From the NCBI RefSeq assembly GCF_000739635.1, contig NZ_BATQ01000123.1, positions 1-45,781 on the forward strand: 45,781 nucleotides of DNA, given 5' to 3'. Positions 5,045 through 16,938 of this stretch are shown in pieces. The translations under genes were made by a program, and so were the position numbers. Position 1 is the first letter of the stretch; every line of letters begins with the position of its first letter. The notes below the pieces were generated by a model. It saw only the letters and a program-made list of their open reading frames with translations. It was not told where the DNA came from and did no database searches. This DNA is from Verrucomicrobium sp. BvORR034. Lineage in GTDB: Bacteria; Verrucomicrobiota; Verrucomicrobiia; Verrucomicrobiales; Verrucomicrobiaceae.

Positions 5045-6025
5045 ATGAAACAACCAATACGATTCCTCTCCCTCCTCGCCATAAGCCTCACGCTCAGTTG
5101 GAGCACCGCTCAAGCCGAGTCCCCCGCTCCAGTCGAACGTATCACCGATGTGATCTACACCAAGCACGATGGCGTGGCCCTGACCATGGACATCTTCAAG
5201 CCGGCCAAGCCCAACGGTGCTGGAGTGATCAAGATCATCAGTGGAGGCTGGAAGTCCAACCACAACGGCATCAATGACGGCGGCTGGCCGCAGGCTGGCT
5301 TCACCACCTTCGTCGTGGTGCATGGCACCCAGCCCCGCTTTCAAGTGACGGAGATCGTCGCCGACCTCCATAGAGCCGTGCGCTTCATTCGCGCCAATGC
5401 CGCCAAATACGGCGTGGATCCCAACAAGCTGGGCGTCACGGGCAGCAGCGCCGGCGGACACCTCAGCCTCATGCTCGCCACCCGCGGTGGCGATGGAGAT
5501 CCCAAAGCCAAGGACCCAGTAGACCGCGAGAGCAGCGCCGTCAATGCCGTGGCCTGTTTCTACCCACCCACTGACTACCTCAACTGGTTTGAGCCCGGTG
5601 ACAACGCCGTGGGGATCGGGCGCCTCGCCGCGTACAAGGCAGCGTTCGGCCTCGAGTCAGACACGCCAGAAGGCCGCGAGAAACTGGGACGTGAACTCTC
5701 CCCGATCTACTGGGCGCACAAAGGCCAGCCCCCTATCTTCATCGTGCACGGCAATGCCGATCCGCAGGTCTCCCACACTCAATCCACCCGATTCCACGAA
5801 AAGTGCCAGGAGCTTGGCGTGAAGTGCGAGCTTGTCATTCGTGACGGCGCTGGCCACGGCGGCTGGCAGGAGATGCCCCAGGACACCACCCGCATGGCGG
5901 AGTGGTTCAATCTCCAGCTGCTGGGTCAGGAGCCCCGCGCCGCCTTCAAGCTCGGCATCACCACCCTGCCCAGCACTCCGGTGAAGAAACCTGCGGCAAC
6001 ACCAACACCGGCACCCACCAGATAA
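5045..6025 (+). CDS. Secreted alpha/beta-hydrolase (carboxylesterase-like)
   Basis: About 326 residues from the chosen start. The ATG at 5045 opens a clean signal peptide (MKQP, hydrophobic core, cleavage near A-Q-A). An in-frame ATG at 5009 overlaps the previous stop (TGATG) and would add 12 residues, so coupling to the dehydrogenase gene is possible. The hydrolase fold shows the nucleophile elbow G-S-S-A-G-G-H, an Asp in H-G-N-A-D-P-Q-V, and a His in G-A-G-H-G-G. The Y-G-V-D-P-x-K-L-G-V-T-G run before the elbow is typical of BD-FAE/acetyl-esterase proteins. It probably acts as a periplasmic esterase on acylated carbohydrates, which is inference. The last 20 residues are a Pro/Thr-rich tail. 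A terminator follows. Confidence 0.82.
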   Translation: MKQPIRFLSLLAISLTLSWSTAQAESPAPVERITDVIYTKHDGVALTMDIFKPAKPNGAGVIKIISGGWKSNHNGINDGGWPQAGFTTFVVVHGTQPRFQVTEIVADLHRAVRFIRANAAKYGVDPNKLGVTGSSAGGHLSLMLATRGGDGDPKAKDPVDRESSAVNAVACFYPPTDYLNWFEPGDNAVGIGRLAAYKAAFGLESDTPEGREKLGRELSPIYWAHKGQPPIFIVHGNADPQVSHTQSTRFHEKCQELGVKCELVIRDGAGHGGWQEMPQDTTRMAEWFNLQLLGQEPRAAFKLGITTLPSTPVKKPAATPTPAPTR

Positions 6026-6064
6026 TCCAGACAGAGTTTTTCCTTTCCATTCTCCATTGGCGCG

Positions 6065-6103
6065 GCCGGGTCTCTCTTTAGGGAGGGACCCGGCATTCTT
6101 TTT
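6065..6103 (+). terminator. Rho-independent terminator after the esterase gene
   Basis: An 8-bp perfect stem GCCGGGTC / GACCCGGC closes a 14-base loop and is followed by ATTCTTTTT. It lies 40 bp after the esterase stop and separates that gene from the protease-secretin operon. No feature was seen in the further 180 bp up to 6285. Confidence 0.75.
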
Positions 6104-6285
6104 GCACATGGCACCAATGGCGTCCGAAATTGCGGCCCACATGGCCATGCCACAAACACCCCCAAGCAGGTCGAAAAACTTCGCCGAGAAACCAGTTGCC
6201 ATTTTTCACGATCCCACTGTAGAAGGGCCAGTCATCTTGGGCAGATGCCCGGTGTCAAATTTTCATCTTCAGCTCCACCACTTGC

Positions 6286-8997
6286 ATGAAGGTCCTTTGG
6301 ATTCACGGCGAAGGGCGCTACAAGCGCCATCTGGAAGTATGGCAGTCGTGGCACAAGGTTTTGCAAGAAGAACTCGGCCTGTGGCACCCAGGCGCCAAGG
6401 TGCAGGCCGCCGCCTTCCCGCTGACGGACTGGCTGGATAGGGCGGCAGATGCTGACGAACCCACCCGCCAGGAGGCGGTGGCCCACCTTGCCCAAGGGCA
6501 GGCGATTCGCGGTATGGGAGACGTGTTGCGAGGCACCCAGGTGGTGTCTGCCGCGAATGAGCAGCTGGCGGATTGCGCCAACCTGATCATGGCCTGGGTA
6601 CGAAATCCCCGCCTGCGATTGAAGCTTCGAGATCAGTTGGAATTGTCTCTGCGTGAGCAAGCGTCCAGCAGGAAGTCTCCGCTTCTCGTCATTGCCGCAG
6701 GAGCCAGCTCACTGGTGGTGTACGACTGCCTGGTCAGGAATCCCGGCCTGGCCAGGAAATGTCTGCTTGTGACACTGGGCTCCCCTTTGGGGCATCCCAC
6801 CGTTCGCAACGTCTACGGAGGACGCATCGTGCCGGTGGATGCCGTTCGCTGGTACCATTTGCATAATCCCCATGATCGATCCTTTGCAACATCCCTCACT
6901 CTCAAGGCCCCCCAGTTTATTGAGGTCCTGACCCCGTTCATCACCGGAGATGGTTCCTTGAACCATGAGGTGATTGCCGAAGGAGCAGATCGCCATGGAT
7001 ATCTCGACCATCCTGCAGCCCGGGAATGGCTTTGGCCGGACGTGTTGCGACGCACCGGCGTACTGTCCCGCAACGAAACGCCACCATCCCTTGGCCGGAC
7101 CAATTCCCGATTTACCGCCAAGTCGGCAAAGTCCAGTTCATCTGTCTTCCAGCCGACGCACCGGGCTCTGCTCATTGGGATAGACCGCTACCAGCACTCC
7201 TCAATCCCCGAGCTCAAGGGTTGTGTGAACGACACCTATTTAATGAGCTCCGTCCTGCAAGAGTGCGGAATGGCCCCCGAGCAGATCCGCATGTTGCACA
7301 ATGAGCGCGCCACCGCCTCCAGCATTCGTGAACGGCTCGACTGGCTGCTGGAGGGGGCATCGCCAGGAGATAGCCGGGTGCTTTTTTTCAGCGGTCACGG
7401 TGCCCAGCTGGAGTCCTACAGCACAGGTGAGGTGGTCGATCGCCAGGACGAGTGCCTGGTGGCCCATGATTTCAATTTTACCCGCGACTCCGCCATCGTG
7501 GATGATGATCTGTGGCGGCTTTACTCGCAGCTTCCCTATGATGCCGACTTCGTAGCCATCATGGACTGCTGCCACGCGGGCGGCACTCATCGGGGCCCCC
7601 AACGGGTTCGAGGTATTGAGCCCCCAGGTGACATCCGCCACCGCGGGATGCAGTGGAATGCAGAGCTCAGCATCTGGGAGGAGCGCCCCCTCTCTCCGCT
7701 GCTGCGTGCCACTCATGGCATGGCTCCCAAGTCCCGCACCATGCAGCCTGACGATAAAGCCAGATACTTTGGAAAAAACGGGATCCTGAGAAAAATCGGC
7801 CGGGCCAATGTACTGCGTCAGACTGATGACGACGCCTACGACAGCCTCCGTACCGAACTGGGACACAACGGGCCCTACCTACCCATCCTGCTACAGGCCT
7901 GCCAGGAGGCTGAACTGGCTGCAGAATATGATCACGGCTCAGTCTCCCACGGAGCCTTCACCTACTGCACTGCCCAAGCTCTCCGCGAACTGGGCCTGGG
8001 AGGGAGGGGCGTAACCTTCCAACAATTGCTAAAGGAAACTCGCAAACGCATGCAACGTCTGGGGTTTACCCAGACCCCGGTGCTACTGGGCCCTCGCCGC
8101 AAAACTGGCCGAGCCATTCCGCTGCCAGGCAGGAAGAGTCCATCTAGAACGGCCCGAAAGGTGTCAGCACGAAAAGGATGGCAAGCGGATGAAAAAGCGT
8201 CTGCCGACTACGCAGCCGCCCTGCCGATCTACCCTGTGGCCAACAATCTCCCGGCCGCCCTGCCAGCGCCGCCGAGAACGCCTTCCACTACCACTTCTCA
8301 GCCCCCCCTAGCGCCCCCTCGCATGGCAACTCGGGATGTGCTGAACCCAGGGAATGATCAACGGCATGCCCGCGACAGTGAGCACTTCCCGTGGAGAGCG
8401 GTCTCCTATTTGGAGGCCACCTTTCAGAGCGGTGAGACCTTCCGTGGTTCAGGGTTCTGTGTGGGGCAAAGGTTGTTGCTGACGGCAGGTCACTGTCTGT
8501 TGGGCCGGGGCAACCGCGCAGTCTCTATCAACGTCTTCCCCGGTCTCCAGCATGGTCGCACCGTTGCGGAGGCAACCACCAGCACCGTGTACAGGGTACA
8601 CCCGCGATGGGAGACCTTGCAGGACCCTGAGTTCGACTACGGCCTGGTGATGTTGCCTTCCAGCGCTCCTTGGATCGGTACTCGCGTGCTCAGTGACGTA
8701 GAAATCACTGGATTGAACTGCTTTGTTGCAGGCTACCCCGTTGATCGCAGCCTGAATGTCTGGGCGGCCGCTGGCTTGGTACAAGCCGCAGGCGACACCT
8801 TGCTAAGTCACCGGATTGACAGCGAGAACGGTCAAAGCGGCGGGCCGATCTTTCATGTGACGGATGAGCTAGATGCCTTCGTCGTGGGCATACACACCCA
8901 GGGTACACCGACCCTCAACCACGGGATCCGCTTTACTGAAGGCGTCCTCACCCAAGTGCTGGCATGGGCCGACGAACTGGGCATGCCGATCCCTTAA
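6286..8997 (+). CDS. Three-domain protein: degenerate alpha/beta-hydrolase, caspase-like peptidase, trypsin-like peptidase
   Basis: A 903-residue protein with three recognisable parts. Residues 1-250 look like a lipase-type alpha/beta-hydrolase (W-I-H-G-E at the start, L-G-S-P-L-G-H-P-T, and G-Y-L-D-H-P with the terminal His). At the elbow position, where relatives have A-H-S-L-G, it reads A-A-G-A-S with Gly139 in place of Ser. Residues 290-630 are a caspase/metacaspase-like C14 domain: A-L-L-I-G-I-D-x-Y, catalytic His371 in F-F-S-G-H-G, and Cys429 in D-C-C-H-A-G. After a Pro-rich linker (about 650-690), residues 700-903 are an S1-type serine peptidase with His736 (T-A-G-H-C), Asp784 (E-F-D-Y-G-L) and Ser851 (N-G-Q-S-G-G-P). 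No signal peptide is seen, so it is probably cytosolic. It heads an operon, and the first secretin starts 22 bp after its stop. Bacterial caspase-trypsin combinations are known from immunity and regulated-death systems; a role here is inference. Confidence 0.85.
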   Translation: MKVLWIHGEGRYKRHLEVWQSWHKVLQEELGLWHPGAKVQAAAFPLTDWLDRAADADEPTRQEAVAHLAQGQAIRGMGDVLRGTQVVSAANEQLADCANLIMAWVRNPRLRLKLRDQLELSLREQASSRKSPLLVIAAGASSLVVYDCLVRNPGLARKCLLVTLGSPLGHPTVRNVYGGRIVPVDAVRWYHLHNPHDRSFATSLTLKAPQFIEVLTPFITGDGSLNHEVIAEGADRHGYLDHPAAREWLWPDVLRRTGVLSRNETPPSLGRTNSRFTAKSAKSSSSVFQPTHRALLIGIDRYQHSSIPELKGCVNDTYLMSSVLQECGMAPEQIRMLHNERATASSIRERLDWLLEGASPGDSRVLFFSGHGAQLESYSTGEVVDRQDECLVAHDFNFTRDSAIVDDDLWRLYSQLPYDADFVAIMDCCHAGGTHRGPQRVRGIEPPGDIRHRGMQWNAELSIWEERPLSPLLRATHGMAPKSRTMQPDDKARYFGKNGILRKIGRANVLRQTDDDAYDSLRTELGHNGPYLPILLQACQEAELAAEYDHGSVSHGAFTYCTAQALRELGLGGRGVTFQQLLKETRKRMQRLGFTQTPVLLGPRRKTGRAIPLPGRKSPSRTARKVSARKGWQADEKASADYAAALPIYPVANNLPAALPAPPRTPSTTTSQPPLAPPRMATRDVLNPGNDQRHARDSEHFPWRAVSYLEATFQSGETFRGSGFCVGQRLLLTAGHCLLGRGNRAVSINVFPGLQHGRTVAEATTSTVYRVHPRWETLQDPEFDYGLVMLPSSAPWIGTRVLSDVEITGLNCFVAGYPVDRSLNVWAAAGLVQAAGDTLLSHRIDSENGQSGGPIFHVTDELDAFVVGIHTQGTPTLNHGIRFTEGVLTQVLAWADELGMPIP

Positions 8998-9019
8998 CCA
9001 GACCCAGCCCGTTTCTATC

Positions 9020-11587
9020 ATGAGTTCCCTTCTGCGCCACACGGTCTATTCGCTCTGCTCCATGGCGCTGCTGGCAGCTCCGCCAGCGGGCTTTCCGCAG
9101 GGGGGGGCGCCGTCCCCAACGCCGGGACTCGCCCCAACACCCGGCAACCCACCCGCCGCAGGATCGCCGGACGTCAAGCCGTCAACGTCTGTCAAAGATC
9201 AGCTCGAAAAGGCCACTACCCCGGCCGGGTTCGTGGAAAGTCTGGTCAAAAGTCACATTGAAACCGTGGAGCCGCTGGCAGGCCCCGGCCGCAATGACCT
9301 GCTGAGGTGGAGTGAAACCGCCTACCACCTGCGGTGGGTCAAAGCCAACCACACCATCACTGATCCTCAAAAGCAGGAAGAAGCCTCCTTCAAGGAATGG
9401 AAACGCGGAGTGCCCACGGAAGATGTCACCCGGGCCATTGCGCGGCTGGCTGCGGAGTTCCCGGTTCGCTACTACTTCAAGAAGCCCGAAACTCCCGCCG
9501 CGACGGGTCCCAAGTTTGTTTTGCTCCATCTTGCCCCCTGGAGCGCCACCCAGGAACTGTACCTGCCGATGGACGATGCCGGATGGCAAAGCCTCGCCAT
9601 GGAACTGGCATCCCGCACCAATCTCAAGATGGAGAAGTACGCGGACAACCGGTGCAGGATCGAAGGCCACCCTCTGGCCATGGATGAGGTGGCTCGCGAA
9701 GCAGACCGAGTTCGTTCTGAACGCATGTTTGGCTTCTCCCCTGCACCGCAATCGCGCGCCAATGAATCTGCCCCAACTGCCATCTTCAATGGAAAAGCCA
9801 TCTCAGCCTCCCTGGGCACACCCTCTCCAGGCAAGGTGACCGACCCCGCCCTCATCGCAGACCCTACCGGTGGCGTCGGGACACACAGCCCTCTCGAGTC
9901 CGCGGCAGCCGTGCCCTCCGTCCAGCCGCCACGCGATTTTCTCAAGATTGGCAAGATGGTGGTGAAGATCTTCCAGCTACGCCACGCCTCTGTGGAGGGG
10001 CAGGCCTTGAACACCGCGCCGAGATCTGCAACCGACCTTCCCACCCAGGTGAAAATCCCCGGTGTGGCAACCGCGTTTGTTGAGATCACAGGAAAGATCT
10101 TCGGCACCAATGCACCACGGCGGCTTTCCAGCGGAGGGACCGATGTGTTTGAAAAGGCTCTCGTTCTGGCAGGCACCGCCCAGCGCCTAGGAAACAACCT
10201 TGGCACGGATTACTACAAACCTTTCCCCATGGCTGGACAACAGGAGTCAGCTGCCGTGCTGGAACAACTGCTGAGAGACAGCTCCTTCAACAACAAAATC
10301 GCCAACAACTTGGAAAACGCTCCTGTCGCCCCCGGCTCGGGCGGGGCCGACACTGGCGACAATTCCAGCGAATCGGAAAACTCCCGTATCCAAGTCATGC
10401 CACCGGTGCAGAAACTTCTGCCTGAGGGGGTGGTGAGAGTGTATCCCCAGGAGTTTATCCCCCAGCAGCCGACCATCGCCAAGTTCGACACCGCCGGGGC
10501 CGACAAGCGAGGGTACGAATCAGGCATGGTCTCCAAGAGCGGGCCCGTGCCTCCGGCCACCAATGTGCCCACACTCCGCGGGGTGGTCATCGCGGAACGG
10601 GCCACAAACCGCCTCATCGTTTGCGATCTGGAGGAGCGAATCCCCATCTACGAGAAGATCGTCGCGCAGCTGGATGTAGCCCCCCAGCTGGTCGAGATCA
10701 GCGCGTCCATCATGGACGTGAATGCCAATGACACACTCGAGTGGGGAGTGGACTGGGCAGGATTGGGCAGGGAGGAAATAACGGAAGCCGTCGGCACCGC
10801 CGCCAGTTCCTTTGACGGCGGGCTCAGGTTTGGCGGGGAGGCGGCGAACAATGGCCTCCGTGTCCTGACCACTCCGGCGGGAGTGCTTACCGCGGACAAG
10901 GTGTTTCACCCCGTTGGGTTGAATGTCTCCACGCTCATCACGGGGACCAGCGGCAAACTCGCCGCGCGGATCCAGGCCCTGGAGACCAACGGCCGCGCCC
11001 AAGTCGTCTCCCGGCCGGTCCTTTTGACGGTGGCGAACACTGAGGCCCTCTTCTATGACAACAATTCCCTCCTGCTTCCCGTGCCTGGAGAATTCAACGC
11101 CGATCTCTTCCGCATCAATGCTCCCCTGGCCCTCCGCATCAAGCCGGTGGTGATGGAACGACCTGATGGCAAAGCCATCCTTCTGGAGATCGAAATCAAG
11201 GACGACAACATCACCGCCACGGCGAATGACGGCACTGTGAATGCCACAGCCAAACCTACGGCCCTGCTGGCGGAAAGCTCCATCTACACTCGGGCACTGG
11301 TGCAGGAAGGCCAGAGTCTCCTGCTGGGAGGACGCTATCGGCATGAACAACGCAAGCAAGTCGGAGCCGTTCCCATCTTGAGCCGCATCCCGCTGGTGGG
11401 TCTGGCCTTTAAGGACCGGCAGAACTCCGACCTGAAGCTGCAACGGTTGTTTCTCATTACCCCGCGTCTCGTGTCACCGGAGGAAGTTCATCCGCTGGGT
11501 CCGGAACTTCCCATGCCCCAGGCCGCCCCCATCCCGGCAGATCCATCCCTGTTTCCCGCCCAAACCGCCGCCCCCCGAATGAAATGA
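9020..11587 (+). CDS. Secretin, type III secretion (SctC-like), first of a tandem pair
   Basis: 855 residues from ATG 9020. The frame is open further 5', but that part overlaps the protease gene, and 9020 begins a signal-peptide-like stretch. A Pro/Gly-rich segment follows, then N-domains at about residues 90-250, a secretin N1-like module with F-Q-L-R-H-A-S and I-P-G-V-A-T at about 320-350, and a second around 515-550 (V-V-I-A-E-R-A-T-N-R-L-I-V). The secretin core (about 560-830) has L-D-V-A-P-Q-L-V-E-I-S-A, V-V-S-R-P-V-L-L-T and E-G-Q-S-L-L-L-G-G-R-Y. It ends with the V-P-I-L-S-R-I-P-L-V-G motif and I-T-P-R-L. Secretins form the outer-membrane ring of type II, III and IV-pilus machines; the core order and spacing fit SctC best. 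No ATPase or export-gate genes lie in the window. Confidence 0.85.
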   Translation: MSSLLRHTVYSLCSMALLAAPPAGFPQGGAPSPTPGLAPTPGNPPAAGSPDVKPSTSVKDQLEKATTPAGFVESLVKSHIETVEPLAGPGRNDLLRWSETAYHLRWVKANHTITDPQKQEEASFKEWKRGVPTEDVTRAIARLAAEFPVRYYFKKPETPAATGPKFVLLHLAPWSATQELYLPMDDAGWQSLAMELASRTNLKMEKYADNRCRIEGHPLAMDEVAREADRVRSERMFGFSPAPQSRANESAPTAIFNGKAISASLGTPSPGKVTDPALIADPTGGVGTHSPLESAAAVPSVQPPRDFLKIGKMVVKIFQLRHASVEGQALNTAPRSATDLPTQVKIPGVATAFVEITGKIFGTNAPRRLSSGGTDVFEKALVLAGTAQRLGNNLGTDYYKPFPMAGQQESAAVLEQLLRDSSFNNKIANNLENAPVAPGSGGADTGDNSSESENSRIQVMPPVQKLLPEGVVRVYPQEFIPQQPTIAKFDTAGADKRGYESGMVSKSGPVPPATNVPTLRGVVIAERATNRLIVCDLEERIPIYEKIVAQLDVAPQLVEISASIMDVNANDTLEWGVDWAGLGREEITEAVGTAASSFDGGLRFGGEAANNGLRVLTTPAGVLTADKVFHPVGLNVSTLITGTSGKLAARIQALETNGRAQVVSRPVLLTVANTEALFYDNNSLLLPVPGEFNADLFRINAPLALRIKPVVMERPDGKAILLEIEIKDDNITATANDGTVNATAKPTALLAESSIYTRALVQEGQSLLLGGRYRHEQRKQVGAVPILSRIPLVGLAFKDRQNSDLKLQRLFLITPRLVSPEEVHPLGPELPMPQAAPIPADPSLFPAQTAAPRMK

Positions 11588-13542
11588 GCCGGCAATCCTC
11601 CCTCCCCCCCCTCCTAAGCCAGCGCCTGCTCCGCCAGTTGCTGTTATGGCTGCTGTCCCTCCTCATCACCACCTCGAACCAGATCCACGCTATCACAGTG
11701 GACGATAGCTTCTGGCGGCAGCCAACGGAGGTCTTCAAAGCAACAACGGATGCCTCCGCCGCTACGGAGGCGGCGAAGCTCAAGGCCACAGTCACTCAGC
11801 TCTGCCGGGGGGAAGGCATCACCCCTGAATTCCAAAACGTGGACGGTCTTAAGAAATTCACCGCCCCCTCCCCAGGGATGCGCACCCCTTTTCTTCAGGA
11901 GCTGCTCACCAAAAACGGTCTGGATGCCTGCTTCTTCAAAAGCACACGGAGTCTCCTCGTCTTCAAGCCTGATGCAGGCTTTGACCGTCGGTACAAGCTG
12001 GTGCCAGCCAGTTTCGACGCTCTGCGGGCGGCACTCCAGTCCAGCATGGCGGGGCCGGAGATGAAGTTTGAACAACCCACTGCCAATCTCAGCCTCAGCG
12101 GGCCGGACGCCTACCTCAATCACATGCAGAACGTCGCTGCCAAGTTGGGCCTCAGATTGGAAGCCGCTTCCGTCGCCGCCCCTGCCCCTGCCCCTGCCGC
12201 TCCAGCTCCTGTTGGCAAAACGGCGATGATCTTTCCGCTCAAATACGCCCGCGCGGAGGCAGAGCGAAACCAACTCCGTGCCACAGTCTTGGGCAGCGCC
12301 ACCGCCACGGGTGCCGTGGATGTGAGGGAAAGCGCGGGGGTGGTGCAAATCCTGCGGAACATGCTGATTGCTGATCTGGCAAAACCCGCCACGGACGAAC
12401 CCTTCATCACCGCCGACCCCACTCGCAATGCCGTCATCATCGTTGATGATCCTGGCAGGGAGCCTCGCTACCGCGAGATCATCGACATGCTGGATGTGCC
12501 CCGGTTCATGGTGGAAATTACTGCGGCGATTGTGGACCTTGAGGTGAGCGACGGTCTGGACTGGCAAAGTAGTTTCCTCGTCAGAGGCACCCAGAAGATC
12601 GAGAGCCGGGAAGTGCCTTTTCGGGTCGGGTTTGGGGCTGATCGTCGATTCTTTGACACCAATCCCACCACGGGTGCCATCACCGGCTCTCCTTTTGACA
12701 AGGACCCGCCCGAGATCCCCGCTGCCCTCACCACCGGCGCATTGGGGCTGAACCAGACCACACTCATTGTAGGATCCAGCTATGCCGTGCTCTCCAACAT
12801 CCGCGCATTGGAACAACGGGGAAAAGCTCAAGTGCTCTCCCGTCCTTCGGTGTTGACCATGGACAACCAGCCAGCCCGGCTCACGGATCAGACAAGTGCC
12901 GTACTGCCCGTAGCGGGGGAACGCCAGTCCTACCTGTACAAGGTGGCGTCTGGCCTCGATCTCGTCGTGCTACCCCGCATCATGAATCATCCGAACGGCG
13001 GACCAGGAAAGGTCTACCTCGGAATCGAAGTAGGCGACGGCTCGCTGACCGACGCTGAAATTGCCAGCCCCAACGTGGCAGCCTCCACGAATGACAACCG
13101 GGTCATCACCCAGGCGGTGGTGCAGACCGGTGAGAGCCTCCTCATCGGCGGGCGCTATCGGAACCAGGAAGTGAAATCTGAATCTGGCATCCCCATTCTC
13201 AGCAAGATCCCGGTGGTGGGACTGCCCTTCAAGAACAAGAAAGTCACCAACGGTCGCTTCCAACGGCTCTACCTGATCACGCCCCGCATCATCAATCCAG
13301 ACAACCCTCAGGGCCCGGCCGACGATGTGATTCAGGCCACTTTGGGACCCCAGATCAGCATCCCCATCGATCCGGCGACCATGGCGGAAGCGGGTCGCCC
13401 CCTCAACAACACACCGGCACCCCGCTCAACATCCCCAGCGGTGCCACCCGCAACTCCCCCACCCGGCCAAGGAGACGACGTGAATCCGCCTCCCCGCAGA
13501 GCGAGCTGGCTCAAACGTCTCTTCAAGAAGAACGACCCTTAG
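11584..13542 (+). CDS. Secretin, type III secretion (SctC-like), second of a tandem pair
   Basis: 652 residues, starting on the ATGA overlap with the first secretin's stop, so the two are translationally coupled. It has an N-terminal signal peptide (hydrophobic stretch at about 15-30, ending near I-H-A), then N0-like and N1-like domains. An Ala-Pro linker at about 197-210 precedes F-P-L-K-Y-A-R-A, the SctC-type N-domain signature. Next come D-P-T-R-N-A-V-I-I-V-D-D and L-D-V-P-R-F-M-V-E-I-T-A. The core has V-L-S-R-P-S-V-L-T, T-G-E-S-L-L-I-G-G-R-Y-R and I-P-I-L-S-K-I-P-V-V-G. The tail (590-652) is Pro-rich and ends in a basic patch. It is about 200 residues shorter than its neighbour and clearly paralogous, so the pair may be an old duplication or may form mixed or alternative rings. 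Confidence 0.87.
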   Translation: MSRQSSLPPLLSQRLLRQLLLWLLSLLITTSNQIHAITVDDSFWRQPTEVFKATTDASAATEAAKLKATVTQLCRGEGITPEFQNVDGLKKFTAPSPGMRTPFLQELLTKNGLDACFFKSTRSLLVFKPDAGFDRRYKLVPASFDALRAALQSSMAGPEMKFEQPTANLSLSGPDAYLNHMQNVAAKLGLRLEAASVAAPAPAPAAPAPVGKTAMIFPLKYARAEAERNQLRATVLGSATATGAVDVRESAGVVQILRNMLIADLAKPATDEPFITADPTRNAVIIVDDPGREPRYREIIDMLDVPRFMVEITAAIVDLEVSDGLDWQSSFLVRGTQKIESREVPFRVGFGADRRFFDTNPTTGAITGSPFDKDPPEIPAALTTGALGLNQTTLIVGSSYAVLSNIRALEQRGKAQVLSRPSVLTMDNQPARLTDQTSAVLPVAGERQSYLYKVASGLDLVVLPRIMNHPNGGPGKVYLGIEVGDGSLTDAEIASPNVAASTNDNRVITQAVVQTGESLLIGGRYRNQEVKSESGIPILSKIPVVGLPFKNKKVTNGRFQRLYLITPRIINPDNPQGPADDVIQATLGPQISIPIDPATMAEAGRPLNNTPAPRSTSPAVPPATPPPGQGDDVNPPPRRASWLKRLFKKNDP

Positions 13543-13584
13543 GATAGTTTCCCACAGAGGTTTCCACCAACAACATCCCTCCCA

Positions 13585-14037
13585 ATGTCACGCCTGCTCA
13601 AGACCCGCCTACTGGCCGCGGCCAGCTTCAGCCTTGCCGCCTTCCTCAGCTCGTGCCAGAGCGTCCTGCCGTACAAAATGGGCGGGAACCCCGCAAACTT
13701 GCGCCCGGGCGCCACTGCGGTGGAGGTGGTGGCAGAAATGGGGTCACCCACAAGCAAGCAACAACATGTACGTGGTGAGACGTGGGTGTATAAAGACTAC
13801 TGGTGGGTCAAGGAGGTCTGGGTGCCCCATTGGGCCTCCTGGGAAATCTACATGGAGAAGCCTCCCGGCAAGCTGAGTATCCTCCGCATGTGCGGCTGGA
13901 AGCTCGTGGACCCACCCGGTCAGGAGCCAGATGTGAGGAGCGCGGTGTATGTGCGGCGACGGAGTGTACCGACGGTGCCAGTTCAGACGACACCCGCCCC
14001 GCTGCCGCCCATGGTCCGCGACAAGAACCCGCCGTGA
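13585..14037 (+). CDS. Small lipoprotein, possible secretin pilotin
   Basis: 150 residues. The signal ends in a lipobox (L-S-S-C at about residues 21-24). The mature part begins with a segment like the SmpA/BamE fold (L-R-P-G-A-T-A-V-E-V-V-A-E-M-G-S-P-T, the pattern around G-M-x-x-x-x-V-x-x-x-L-G-x-P). It then has an unusual Trp-rich region (W-V-Y-K-D-Y-W-W-V-K-E-V-W-V) and a Pro-rich tail. The start is 42 bp downstream of the second secretin. Small lipoproteins next to secretins often act as pilotins that carry the secretin to the outer membrane; that role is suggested only by position and size. It is otherwise unrecognised. Confidence 0.7.
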   Translation: MSRLLKTRLLAAASFSLAAFLSSCQSVLPYKMGGNPANLRPGATAVEVVAEMGSPTSKQQHVRGETWVYKDYWWVKEVWVPHWASWEIYMEKPPGKLSILRMCGWKLVDPPGQEPDVRSAVYVRRRSVPTVPVQTTPAPLPPMVRDKNPP

Positions 14038-14125
14038 TGACCGTTCCGGATAACGAACCGCCGTCGGAGCTTCTGGGATAGCCAGCACCTTCCTCGCGAT
14101 CAATCGCATGGGAGCTCGCGATTCA

Positions 14126-14162: not shown

Positions 14163-14339
14163 ATGAAACTTGAACCACCCAACCCCGCCCCCATCCCCAA
14201 GAATCGAGCCCTGCTCATCGGGACCATCCTCGCCATTCTGTTCGCCTTCATTGCCACCATCGTTACCTGGGGCGTTCTCTGGTCCCATGGACATGAGGAG
14301 GCTGAAAAGACAGTGACACCGGTCGAGGCCAAACCATGA
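14163..14339 (+). CDS. Small single-pass membrane protein
   Basis: A 58-residue protein with a short Pro-rich N-terminus, one hydrophobic helix (about residues 18-40) and a charged E/K-rich tail. I chose ATG 14163, although the frame is open a little further upstream through non-ATG codons. Its last codon and stop overlap the next gene's ATG (ATGA), which supports its being a real coupled gene. No family is recognised. It heads the run with DUF72 and MgtC. Confidence 0.6.
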   Translation: MKLEPPNPAPIPKNRALLIGTILAILFAFIATIVTWGVLWSHGHEEAEKTVTPVEAKP

Positions 14340-15277
14340 AGACGGCACCAGGACACCAGGTCCATGGTGAAATTCGCATCGGCATCTCCGGATGGACCTA
14401 TGCCCCTTGGAGGGGAAAGTGGTACCCAAAGGGACTCACCCACAAGCGGGAACTGGAGTACGCCTCCCGTCAGGTCCGCTCCATTGAGATCAACGGCACC
14501 TTCTACTCCCTTCAGCGGCCCAAGAGCTTTCAAGCCTGGTACGATGCCACCCCACCGGACTTCGTCTTTGCCGTCAAGGCACCCCGCTACATCACCCACG
14601 TCAAAAGGCTGAAGGACATCGCCGAGCCGCTGGCCAACTTCTTTGCTTCCGGGATGTTGTGTCTGAAGGAGAAACTTGGCCCGGTTCTCTGGCAGTTCCC
14701 TCCGAGCTTCAAGTACCAGCCCGAACTTATGACGGCCTTTTTCAAGATGCTGCCTGCCAGCACCACCGCAGCGCTCCGGCTGGCGCGGAAACACAACGCA
14801 AAGGTGCAGGGGCGCACCGCCTTCCCCAAGATCAAACCTCGCCCCATGAGGCATGCGATTGAGGTGCGCCATCCTTCTTTTGTCTGCCCGGAGTTCGTGG
14901 AACAACTGCGCGAGTTCGACGTGGCCCTCGTGGTGGCGGACACAGCCGGTCGATGGCCGTTCATGGAGGACCTCACCAGTGATTTCATCTACCTGCGTCT
15001 TCACGGAGATGAGGAACTCTATGTCAGCGGTTATACCCAGGCGGCACTGAAAACATGGCAGCGCAAGATCGACTTATGGGCGCGCGGACGTCAACCTCGC
15101 GGGTGCCGGACCCACGCCCCCAGAGATCACTCCCACCCAGGAGTCAAAGATGTGTATGCGTACTTCGACAATGACGTCAAAGTCCACGCACCATACGACG
15201 CCATCGACCTAGCTCACAAGCTTCATGCAGACGCCCCAACCAGTTCCAGAACCAAAGGCGATGATATGGCAAGATGA
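14336..15277 (+). CDS. DUF72 family protein
   Basis: A 313-residue protein with the full set of DUF72 landmarks: R-I-G-I-S-G-W-T-Y near the start, then W-R-G-K-W-Y-P, E-I-N-G-T-F-Y at about residue 55, F-V-F-A-V-K-A, the internal L-G-P-V-L-W-Q-F-P-P, A-I-E-V-R-H-P-S-F, and Y-L-R-L-H-G near 220. DUF72 proteins have a TIM-barrel fold of uncertain function and are widespread in bacteria. It overlaps both neighbours by ATGA, giving a tight operon with a small membrane protein and MgtC. No catalytic role can be assigned. Confidence 0.88.
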   Translation: MKTAPGHQVHGEIRIGISGWTYAPWRGKWYPKGLTHKRELEYASRQVRSIEINGTFYSLQRPKSFQAWYDATPPDFVFAVKAPRYITHVKRLKDIAEPLANFFASGMLCLKEKLGPVLWQFPPSFKYQPELMTAFFKMLPASTTAALRLARKHNAKVQGRTAFPKIKPRPMRHAIEVRHPSFVCPEFVEQLREFDVALVVADTAGRWPFMEDLTSDFIYLRLHGDEELYVSGYTQAALKTWQRKIDLWARGRQPRGCRTHAPRDHSHPGVKDVYAYFDNDVKVHAPYDAIDLAHKLHADAPTSSRTKGDDMAR

Positions 15278-15807
15278 CTTGGGAATCCGCCACCAATGAA
15301 CTGACCGTCCTCCTGAGAGCATTGGTCGCCCTCTTCCTGGGCGGGCTGCTGGGTTGGGAACGCGAAAATGCCGGCAAGTGGGCTGGCTTGCGAACCCATA
15401 TGCTGGTGGCCCTCGCCTCGCTCATTTTCATCAGCCTTGGTCAAATGCTGATCGCGGACACTCTAAAGGTCAGCCACCAGGCCGACCGGTCCATCGTTCA
15501 AGCAGATCCTTCACGCATGATCGAAGCCATCGTCGCTGGCATCGCGTTTCTTGGCGCTGGCACCATATTCCGGGACAATTCGGCGGGAAAAGCCCGCGGC
15601 CTTACCACGGCCGCCTCTCTGCTGACCACCGCCACCATCGGCATCGCCGTGGCCATCGACCGCTATCTTATCGCCATCGGAGTCACGGCACTGTGTTTGA
15701 TCACTCTTCATACCCTCAACCGACTTTCCGGCCAGATTCACCAGTCTTCAGGAGGTGAAAAGGGAGGTGCAACTGATTCAGCACGGAAAAACGATCTGGA
15801 AAAATGA
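15274..15807 (+). CDS. MgtC/SapB family membrane protein
   Basis: A 177-residue membrane protein with the MgtC/SapB signature: L-G-G-L-L-G-W-E-R at about residues 22-30, A-G-L-R-T-H-M-L-V, then I-V-A-G-I-A-F-L-G-A-G-T-I at about 87-99 and G-L-T-T-A-A-S-L-L-T-T-A. About four to five transmembrane helices are evident. It lacks the extra C-terminal ACT-like domain of pathogen MgtC and ends in a short hydrophilic tail, as in the shorter SapB type. MgtC proteins affect growth in low magnesium and membrane potential; members outside pathogens are poorly defined. It starts on the DUF72 stop. Confidence 0.87.
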   Translation: MTWESATNELTVLLRALVALFLGGLLGWERENAGKWAGLRTHMLVALASLIFISLGQMLIADTLKVSHQADRSIVQADPSRMIEAIVAGIAFLGAGTIFRDNSAGKARGLTTAASLLTTATIGIAVAIDRYLIAIGVTALCLITLHTLNRLSGQIHQSSGGEKGGATDSARKNDLEK

Positions 15808-15837
15808 TCATCCACTCCACGCGACTACCCTGCTCTG

Positions 15838-16800
15838 CTATTTGACGAGGGCTACGTCATGCTGGACCATTTCACGGACCATCTCCTCGAAGGTGAACGT
15901 GGGTGACCATCCAAGCTCCGCACGAATGAGGCTGGAATCTCCCACCAAAGGCACGGCATCCTCCTGACGAAAGAAGCGGTCGACACTGACGACATGCTCC
16001 TGCCAGTCCAATCCGACTTGAGAGAAAGCAGCAGCGCAGAATTCACGGACGGTGCGCAGATGGCCAGTGGCGAGAACATAGTCTTTGGGCACAGGCTGGT
16101 TGACCATCAAATGCATGGCACGCACGTAATCCGGCGCATAGCCCCAGTCTCGACGTGCGTCCAGGTTCCCCAGTTCGAGGCGATATTTCTGCCCTGACGC
16201 GATCCGGGCCACTGCTCGAGTGATTTTGCGCGTCACAAACTCAGGACGCCGTCTGGGACTCTCATGATTGTACAGAATGCCGGTCACGCAATACATGCCG
16301 TACGACTCCCGATAATTCCGCACCAGATGATGAGAAGTCACCTTGCTGATCCCGTAGGGATTGCGCGGAAGAAATGGCGTCTGCTCCGACTGGGGAGCCT
16401 CTGTGGGCCGGCCAAACATCTCACTGCTCCCTGCAAAGTAGAACCGGCAGTCCGGTTGCAGATCCTGAAGGGTGGCTAGCAGGAAATGGGTACCGCTGAT
16501 GTTGGCAAACATCGTGTGAAAACCATCTGCAAGATGCTCGCCCACGAAGCTCACTGAAGCGAGGTGATAGCACTCGTCGAACTTGTACTTCTTAATCAGG
16601 CGGTGCAGCCCGGGAAAGCTGTCCAGGCTGATCGCATGCAGGAGGCACTGATTGAGCACCTCCCCCGTTCTGCCTCCCTCCAGGCTTTCCAAATTTGTCT
16701 GGCGCACCAAGCCATGCACTTCGTAGCCCAGAGAGAGAAGATGCTCCGCCAAATAGGTGCCATCCTGACCCGTGATTCCAGTGATGAGTGCCCGCTTCAT
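15838..16800 (-). CDS. gmd: GDP-mannose 4,6-dehydratase
   Basis: A 320-residue short-chain-dehydrogenase fold enzyme. ATG 16800 gives the canonical MKRALITGITGQDG start; the frame stays open upstream, but without family sequence. Landmarks are G-I-T-G-Q-D-G (NADP-binding), Y-H-L-A-S-V-S-F-V, F-A-G-S-S-E-M-F-G, and the Tyr-Lys pair in P-Y-G-I-S-K. Next come L-Y-N-H-E-S-P-R-R and F-V-T-R-K-I-T-R-A, the hallmark GDP-mannose dehydratase segments. It converts GDP-mannose to GDP-4-keto-6-deoxymannose for fucose, rhamnose or related surface sugars. It diverges from an rmlD-like reductase at 16939, which might use its product. Confidence 0.88.
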   Translation of the reverse strand: MKRALITGITGQDGTYLAEHLLSLGYEVHGLVRQTNLESLEGGRTGEVLNQCLLHAISLDSFPGLHRLIKKYKFDECYHLASVSFVGEHLADGFHTMFANISGTHFLLATLQDLQPDCRFYFAGSSEMFGRPTEAPQSEQTPFLPRNPYGISKVTSHHLVRNYRESYGMYCVTGILYNHESPRRRPEFVTRKITRAVARIASGQKYRLELGNLDARRDWGYAPDYVRAMHLMVNQPVPKDYVLATGHLRTVREFCAAAFSQVGLDWQEHVVSVDRFFRQEDAVPLVGDSSLIRAELGWSPTFTFEEMVREMVQHDVALVK

Positions 16801-16938
16801 TCTCGCCCCATCGTGGCACGATCTTGAATCTGAGCAAGATCGAAGGCCGGGCGGGGAGGATTTTGATCGATGCCACCGGATTGCGACGAGCAGAAACTTC
16901 TTGCCTCCCCCCCTGATCACGCCACTATGGCCGCTCGC

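Follow-up and report, generated by a model that had tools for sequence, protein, structure and literature searches.

A hydrolase-caspase gene fused to a V8-like protease gene heads a rare secretin operon in Verrucomicrobium

Why should a caspase-like peptidase, a serine peptidase, two secretins and a lipoprotein be encoded side by side in a bacterial genome? The question is raised by a four-gene operon in Verrucomicrobium sp. BvORR034 (assembly GCF_000739635.1), on contig NZ_BATQ01000123.1, whose 45,781 analyzed nucleotides we call the window. An initial annotation, made from the sequence alone, had described a 903-residue protein in which a cysteine-peptidase C14 domain (His371, Cys429) and a serine-peptidase domain (His736, Asp784, Ser851) lie behind an alpha/beta-hydrolase-like domain, had placed two coupled secretins and a lipoprotein 22 bp downstream, and had put forward two hypotheses: a device for export or death set off by contact or injury, or secretion gated by a protease. 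All of the named catalytic residues were found at these positions, and the four genes are laid out as follows:

6286..8997, + strand: fused protease gene, 903 aa, with pseudo-hydrolase, metacaspase-like and V8-like parts (open reading frame [ORF] list, Pfam, alignments)
9020..11587, + strand: secretin A, 855 aa, an N-terminal region without assignment and then a SctC-like core
11584..13542, + strand: secretin B, 652 aa, SctC-like, with Secretin_N and Secretin domains
13585..14037, + strand: lipoprotein gene, 150 aa, weakly BamE-like, candidate pilotin

Position 6286 is the earliest ATG, GTG or TTG downstream of the preceding stop in the protease ORF. The ORF coordinates confirmed the 22-bp gap between the protease stop (8997) and the secretin A ATG (9020) as well as the coupling of the secretin genes, which overlap by 4 bp; the lipoprotein gene begins 42 bp past secretin B.

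We found the same gene order (protease, secretin A, secretin B, lipoprotein) in three of 386 genomes of the order, representing two genera: that of BvORR034 itself (G000), that of Verrucomicrobium sp. BvORR106 (G065), and one from a sister genus (G061). Its recurrence in G065 and G061, which the initial annotation had proposed to look for, led us to reject chance adjacency, and an assembly or frame error was rejected because the G065 copy, with 70–83% amino acid identity to the window, is in frame throughout. G061 was more divergent, with 60% identity in the best segment of each secretin and 59% for the lipoprotein. When an 18.5-kb query from the window was compared with the G061 operon contig, DNA matches were obtained only for the secretins and the lipoprotein, while the flanking genes of the window matched other G061 contigs (40 of 85 first-look candidates scored in G061), indicating that the G061 operon sits at an unrelated genomic place. 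These comparisons support well a conserved unit made up of the V8-like protease, two secretins and the lipoprotein, present in three genomes of two genera at two unrelated places. Relative to G065, dN/dS within the protease was 0.04 (caspase), 0.10 (V8) and 0.17 (hydrolase-like), and the other three genes gave 0.09–0.10, with dS near saturation and the linker yielding no value; selection is purifying on every part with a computable dN/dS. Taken with the repeated gene order, these values speak for co-occurrence beyond chance.

The protease is the member of the unit that differs between genera. The G061 protease is 306 aa long, aligns solely to residues 618–902 of the window protein (34% identity), and has no caspase. 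The other half also occurs alone: stand-alone hydrolase-caspase relatives of approximately 615–666 aa, with 38–41% identity in their best segments, are encoded in four genomes (G021, G023, G238, and G341), and no secretin or V8-domain match lies near them at any of the four loci (16–19 kb each). Because the two halves occur apart in other genomes, we read the window protein as two genes joined near residue 618, and the fusion of a conflict-type caspase gene to a secretin-linked protease gene at about this residue is well supported by the alignments. Protease homologues without secretins thus exist for the hydrolase-caspase half and not for the serine-peptidase half, so that the peptidase-secretin linkage drawn in the initial annotation holds for the latter and falls away for the former. 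Full-length protease was present in two of the 386 order genomes, with no more than two first-look candidates scored in each; within the family, full-length matches were confined to one genus (G000 and G065, 70% identity; 2/68 genomes), with any match at all in 13/68. The window protein is divided as follows:

6286..7065, + strand: alpha/beta-hydrolase-like domain, residues 1–260, with Gly139 at the nucleophile position (alignment with four stand-alone homologues)
7147..8136, + strand: C14 caspase domain, residues 288–617, with His371 and Cys429
8137..8337, + strand: linker, residues 618–684, 48% identical to G065, with the fusion boundary at about 618
8332-8334, + strand: codon of Arg683, a candidate caspase site, with cleavage predicted after this residue
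8338..8994, + strand: V8-like glutamyl-endopeptidase domain, residues 685–903, with His736, Asp784 and Ser851, and S1 positions His870 and Ser846

Both peptidase active sites are complete, in line with the initial annotation. Pfam matches were obtained for Peptidase_C14 at residues 292–600 (E = 1.9e-25) and for Trypsin_2 at residues 721–861 (E = 1.1e-10), the His371/Cys429 dyad was unchanged across six aligned hydrolase-caspase proteins, and the His736/Asp784/Ser851 triad was present in all three aligned proteases. The annotated alpha/beta-hydrolase-like domain stood only by way of its homologues: the N-terminal domain itself had no Pfam match up to E 5, and its hydrolase nature is argued from relatives such as L088, which matched Abhydrolase_6 at E 0.0047 (18.0 bits, below the 26.3 cut-off). 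A Ser occupies the nucleophile position in three of the four stand-alone homologues (L088, L121, and L122; L089 has none), and a Gly occupies it in the window protein and its sister genome. Judged by this alignment, the domain has lost its nucleophile and is a pseudo-hydrolase, which fits its being the least constrained of the three domains by dN/dS.

The nearest solved structures to the caspase part were metacaspases (TbMCA2, then metacaspase-4, -9, and -1), enzymes that prefer Arg or Lys. The excerpted text of PMC4357240 proposes Cys92, Asp95, Ser156, and Asp211 as the TbMCA2 S1 site, and given an inferred numbering offset of 20, Cys313, Asp316, Ser369, and Asp427 match these residues. With both the dyad and the S1 residues present, the caspase part is metacaspase-like by sequence. 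For the serine peptidase, the nearest solved structures were glutamyl endopeptidases, including V8. V8-type glutamyl endopeptidases belong to family S1B. The triad is accompanied by His870 and Ser846 at the S1 positions (Ser846 taken as residue 190 by inference from its distance to Ser851), and the domain is, on these residues, V8-like with predicted Glu specificity. The annotated “trypsin” was thus correct as a serine peptidase and is better termed V8-like, and the substrate specificities of both proteases are inferred from these positions.

Conflict-type surroundings were clear at one of the four stand-alone caspase loci and possible in a second. In G023, the hydrolase-caspase gene is followed by a gene with PADLOC matches of the ThsA type (ThsA being a SIR2-type enzyme) and of other types, an nSTAND1-WD40 gene, and another caspase gene (L088:2270-10538), and the cluster has the look of a conflict system. 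The G021 gene adjoins a second caspase gene. A G061 cluster (L126:7687-15295) contains a second V8-like gene (by alignment; no Pfam match) followed by PLD and EAD1 genes and then by the gene of a large NTPase-type protein, whose trypsin match falls short of the cut-off. With relatives beside ThsA-like and nSTAND1-WD40 genes and beside EAD1, PLD, and NTPase genes, the peptidase parts are of the conflict-system kind that the annotation had named. PADLOC matched the window protease to a generic caspase model (1.1e-18) and weakly to LmuA (7e-4); it returned no match for the secretins or lipoprotein, and no gene set of a known anti-phage system was complete. The ORF lists of the loci compared in this work were thinned by an overlap rule. 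A further pairing recurs in two genomes (L127:5806-7874 and L129:6093-8298): directly 5′ of a V8-like peptidase gene, each has a gene that resembles a lipoprotein gene (379 and 427 aa) and has no Pfam match.

Turning to the channel genes, secretins A and B both passed the Pfam Secretin model (3.1e-28 and 7.8e-29), MxiD and InvG were the solved chains nearest to secretin B, and the N-terminal part of secretin A had no Pfam match up to E 5. In a tree to which the window and 20 fetched loci were offered, with hits under 230 aligned residues omitted, both secretins fell within the SctC clade of type III secretion systems (T3SS; support 100/100, 18 rows), with long branches flagged by the program. 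This agrees with the SctC-like label of the initial annotation, although both scored below the 238.45 cut-off of the SctC model TIGR02516 (214.9 and 205.6 bits); the SctC of the strain's own T3SS scored 343.7 bits. Each secretin formed its own three-row group (100/100), and both groups had the same branching order, with G061 outside the pair of G000 and G065 (inner support 99/92 and 94/91), from which the secretin pair is probably older than the split of the two genera.

It could be argued from this clade that the secretins are alternative SctC rings of a T3SS, with the protease as an exported substrate or regulator. The genome does have a T3SS, on another contig (SctV, SctC, and SctN over cut-off; SctD 79.5 of 86 bits), and in another genome (G125) a lipoprotein relative is the neighbor of SctC within a T3SS cluster, but the failure of both secretins to reach the SctC cut-off and the situation in other genomes argue against such a role. 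SctV and SctN over cut-off were found in G000, G065, and G067; in G061 and G062, there was no SctV match at E <= 1e-50 and all ATPases were below the SctN cut-off. As G061 has the operon without a T3SS while G067, from the same genus as the window, has a T3SS without the operon, the operon does not appear to be a T3SS part in G061. No T3SS export gene was present among the 15 neighboring ORFs scanned between 946 and 29030. We rejected T3SS membership on the missed SctC cut-off and on G061, and consider the spare-ring explanation very unlikely, the least probable of those discussed here. That the operon occurs without a T3SS is supported in one genome, and the secretins, which are T3SS-type by domain and clade, are best classed as orphan. 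The initial annotation had set against itself the possibility that such secretins always accompany a full type III gene set; the genomes do not bear this out, as the strain's own T3SS lies elsewhere with its own SctC, and G061 lacks an SctV match and an SctN over cut-off.

The lipoprotein carries Cys24 in a lipobox-like setting, and scored 15.9 bits for the BamE family PF04355, under the 23.2 gathering cut-off; its profile had one weak match among solved structures (E 0.096). That profile, built on four rows from three of these genomes, matched 18 of the 386 genomes, with 268–271 bits for the operon copies of G000, G065, and G061, 166 for a second copy in the BvORR034 genome, and 68 for the best other genome. 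The second copy, on another contig (L085:8147-11639), follows a 962-aa T3SS-type secretin, and a lipoprotein relative likewise adjoins an orphan secretin in G080 (L123); no relative of the fused protease was found near either pair. In G125, from another family, the relative adjoins SctC in divergent orientation in a T3SS cluster with SctV, SctD, SctW, and TyeA (L124:8675-11837), where it is a candidate Verrucomicrobial T3SS pilotin. Since relatives adjoin secretins in these three cases, a pilotin (secretin-helper) role is reasonable, and the lipoprotein is a candidate pilotin by genomic association.

The protease has no evident signal peptide: the 19-residue mean hydrophobicity of its N-terminus was at most 0.14, compared with 1.1–1.9 at the other three N-termini. 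This, together with the position of its gene first in the operon, would suit a quality-control function in which the protease clears mislocalized secretin precursors or answers secretin stress and the caspase merely sets a threshold; secretins that do not reach the outer membrane are toxic. However, the two orphan secretin-lipoprotein pairs manage without a protease relative nearby, and a conflict-type caspase would in our opinion be an odd choice for housekeeping, which makes this explanation improbable.

How, then, might the caspase and the V8-like domain act together? In a whole-protein search, V8 aligned in one stretch with residues 686–883. V8 residue 2 falls on Leu686, which puts residue 1 on Val685, and Arg683-Asp684 stands directly before it. 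The G065 protein retains Arg-Asp-Val, and the G061 protein, whose chain carries no caspase, lacks it. According to a review, available in excerpt, the free N-terminus is part of the S1 site in V8-type proteases, and this site takes shape only once processing has occurred; precursors that keep some of the propeptide depend on heterocatalytic activation. A caspase whose pocket is of the Arg type, lying just ahead of the V8 N-terminus position, would be a natural activator, and we consider activation of the V8 domain by the caspase in cis plausible. A signal would act on the pseudo-hydrolase/caspase part; the caspase, through its Arg/Lys-type S1 pocket, would cut the linker after Arg683; the N-terminus so freed, next to the position of the mature V8 N-terminus, would activate the V8 domain, which could then cleave after Glu in proteins of the cytosol or inner membrane. 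As pilotin, the lipoprotein would serve the secretins, which would form a separate outer-membrane channel by which the same program lets material out (or in). We thus tentatively favor an accessory envelope operon of Verrucomicrobium and its sister genus, combining a caspase-activated V8 cascade with a separate secretin channel, at somewhat short of an even chance. The arrangement suggests that an uncharacterized device couples internal protein cutting to an envelope channel; regulated release or cell death is our preferred output, as a guess.

Several observations weigh against this proposal. When the C-terminal part was the query, the block at the N-terminal end of the V8 match scored weakly by itself (12.5 bits, i-E 0.61), and AlphaFold models from two sequences each had a mean pLDDT of 29.7 for the full protease and 46.5 for the lipoprotein and were not used. 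According to the same review, at least one extra N-terminal residue significantly lowers V8 activity; a cut at Arg683 leaves an extra Asp684, so that further trimming, or a cut elsewhere, may be required. With the fusion in two genomes, the Arg683 argument rests on two sequences, and the operon as a whole is confined to three genomes and appears dispensable, given its absence from the same-genus G067. The protease and the channels would occupy different compartments, and an inner-membrane partner is absent from the four genes. Wider associations were also missing: no secretin match lay near other V8-like genes at five loci (10–16 kb each), which are far more distant relatives (E no better than 4e-18, compared with 5e-38 for the secretin-linked one); all neighbors of the G238 and G341 caspase genes (three scanned each) were ordinary or unassigned; and 13 of 15 further genomes with lipoprotein matches (21–34 bits) had no secretin within approximately 1.5 kb on each side.

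The main rival to a release or cell-death output is historical co-transcription, in which the genes share a transcript and no pathway, the secretins and lipoprotein forming an orphan channel and the protease an independent conflict effector. The 13 secretin matches in the BvORR034 genome, the secretin-lipoprotein pairs at L085 and L123, and the five secretin-free V8-like loci are all compatible with such neighbors by history. The four genes nevertheless stay together in two genera although their flanks differ, and the matching branching orders of secretins A and B point the same way; we regard this rival as rather unlikely, though a serious contender.

The operon is rare. At E <= 1e-40, secretin A was matched in its own genome alone among 387 genomes drawn from the phylum, and a scan of genome contigs with secretin B yielded BvORR106 together with a single secretin match, of 22%, in Uliginosibacterium. 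In a plasmid collection, 201 records partly matched the protease, with coverage up to 36% among the ten matches listed, and none covered 80% of it. G067, a single contig, is collinear with the window on both sides, with 6004-14088 replaced by 143 bp. Flank identities were 89% for G000-G067, 86% and 84% for G000-G065, and 83% for G065-G067; G065 thus seems to branch outside G000 and G067, given which loss in G067 is the simplest reading. In G061, the operon is embedded in a tandem series (L083:5914-18626) of roughly eight genes for small proteins whose hydrophobic N-termini look alike by eye; relatives of these proteins (E <= 1e-5) were found in G061 (five places) and G062 (five) and in none of three Verrucomicrobium genomes searched.

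Upstream of the operon, the consensus scan found one further feature:

6065..6094, + strand: terminator-like hairpin of 13 pairs with a T-rich tail, 3′ of the upstream esterase gene

This hairpin suggests that the operon may begin its own transcription unit. The scan gave nine sites in the region against 6.7 expected (sd 2.3), with none on the + strand inside 6286-14037. Most of the scanned flanking ORFs have metabolic assignments (3-hydroxyacyl-CoA dehydrogenase, esterase type, amidase, DUF72, MgtC, sugar-nucleotide enzymes, PTS enzyme I type, and HPr kinase), so the locus is not an obvious defense island. Past the operon lies a small single-transmembrane ORF (14163-14339, by eye) in a region kept at 83% in G067, and we therefore assign it to the flank. 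Beyond it, 14309-16808 is a variable spot: in G067, neither DUF72 nor MgtC has a match here, and in G065 nothing here matches as far as the sugar dehydratase.

Among described systems, the window protein resembles the hydrolase-caspase pairs that Kaur et al. (2020; PMC7159879, in excerpt) report for conflict systems of the VMAP/vWA-MoxR and related kinds. It shows the same coupling of a hydrolase-type domain to a caspase, here with the nucleophile lost, and its G023 relative lies near ThsA-like and nSTAND1-WD40 genes. It differs in having both domains on one chain, with a fused V8-like peptidase in addition; according to the excerpts, the MoxR-vWA systems studied there have either the Trypco-trypsin or the hydrolase-caspase pairing, but not both. 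Among the 15 neighboring ORFs, Pfam gave no match to MoxR or vWA, with no VMAP-specific model tried. A caspase followed by a variable C-terminal domain is also the plan of the EACC1 and EACC2 caspase systems, and in the excerpted sources peptidases are named among the domains fused behind EACC1-type caspases (PMC7159879) and trypsin-type peptidases behind EACC2-type caspases (PMC8195603). We rejected membership of the EACC1-associated caspases (NF047832, 49 bits against a 140 cut-off; EACC genes not searched specifically). A caspase with a C-terminal trypsin-type domain thus has precedent in these texts, which limits the initial annotation's statement that no described system joins such parts. 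Its secretin side stands: the word secretin is absent from the main text of PMC8195603, and searches of open-licence PMC text, which does not speak for all print, gave no account of a caspase, V8 and secretin combination among the matches listed. We know of no earlier description of a pseudo-hydrolase placed ahead of such a fusion or of a secretin operon following it.

The secretins share the clade of SctC secretins (TIGR02516) but are below its cut-off, stand two in tandem, and have no adjacent T3SS genes; T3SS-type secretins with a lipoprotein outside a T3SS bear on secretin reuse in Verrucomicrobia. The protease resembles V8-type glutamyl endopeptidases in its triad and S1 positions, but has no evident signal peptide and carries its proposed activator, the caspase, on the same chain. 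It offers a clear case of gene fusion, in which a conflict-kind caspase module has been joined to an envelope-channel operon, and a precise test point, namely a caspase cut near Arg683 that would switch on the V8 domain.

Gasdermin systems are protease-activated bacterial death systems, and we know of no secretins that are protease-activated. Pfam and curated model scans matched neither a gasdermin nor a nuclease in the four operon genes. Compared with caspase-nuclease (canu) loci (PMC12799240, in excerpt), the operon is alike in encoding a possible executioner partner beside a protease of caspase or trypsin type, and differs from canu and gasdermin systems in that this partner would be the secretins. 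A caspase-gated death or release device, in which the metacaspase matures V8 in cis and the secretins take a gasdermin-like pore role, is a distinctly improbable extension of the cascade that we favor; if true, it would be a second, unrelated bacterial coupling of caspase activation to an envelope pore.

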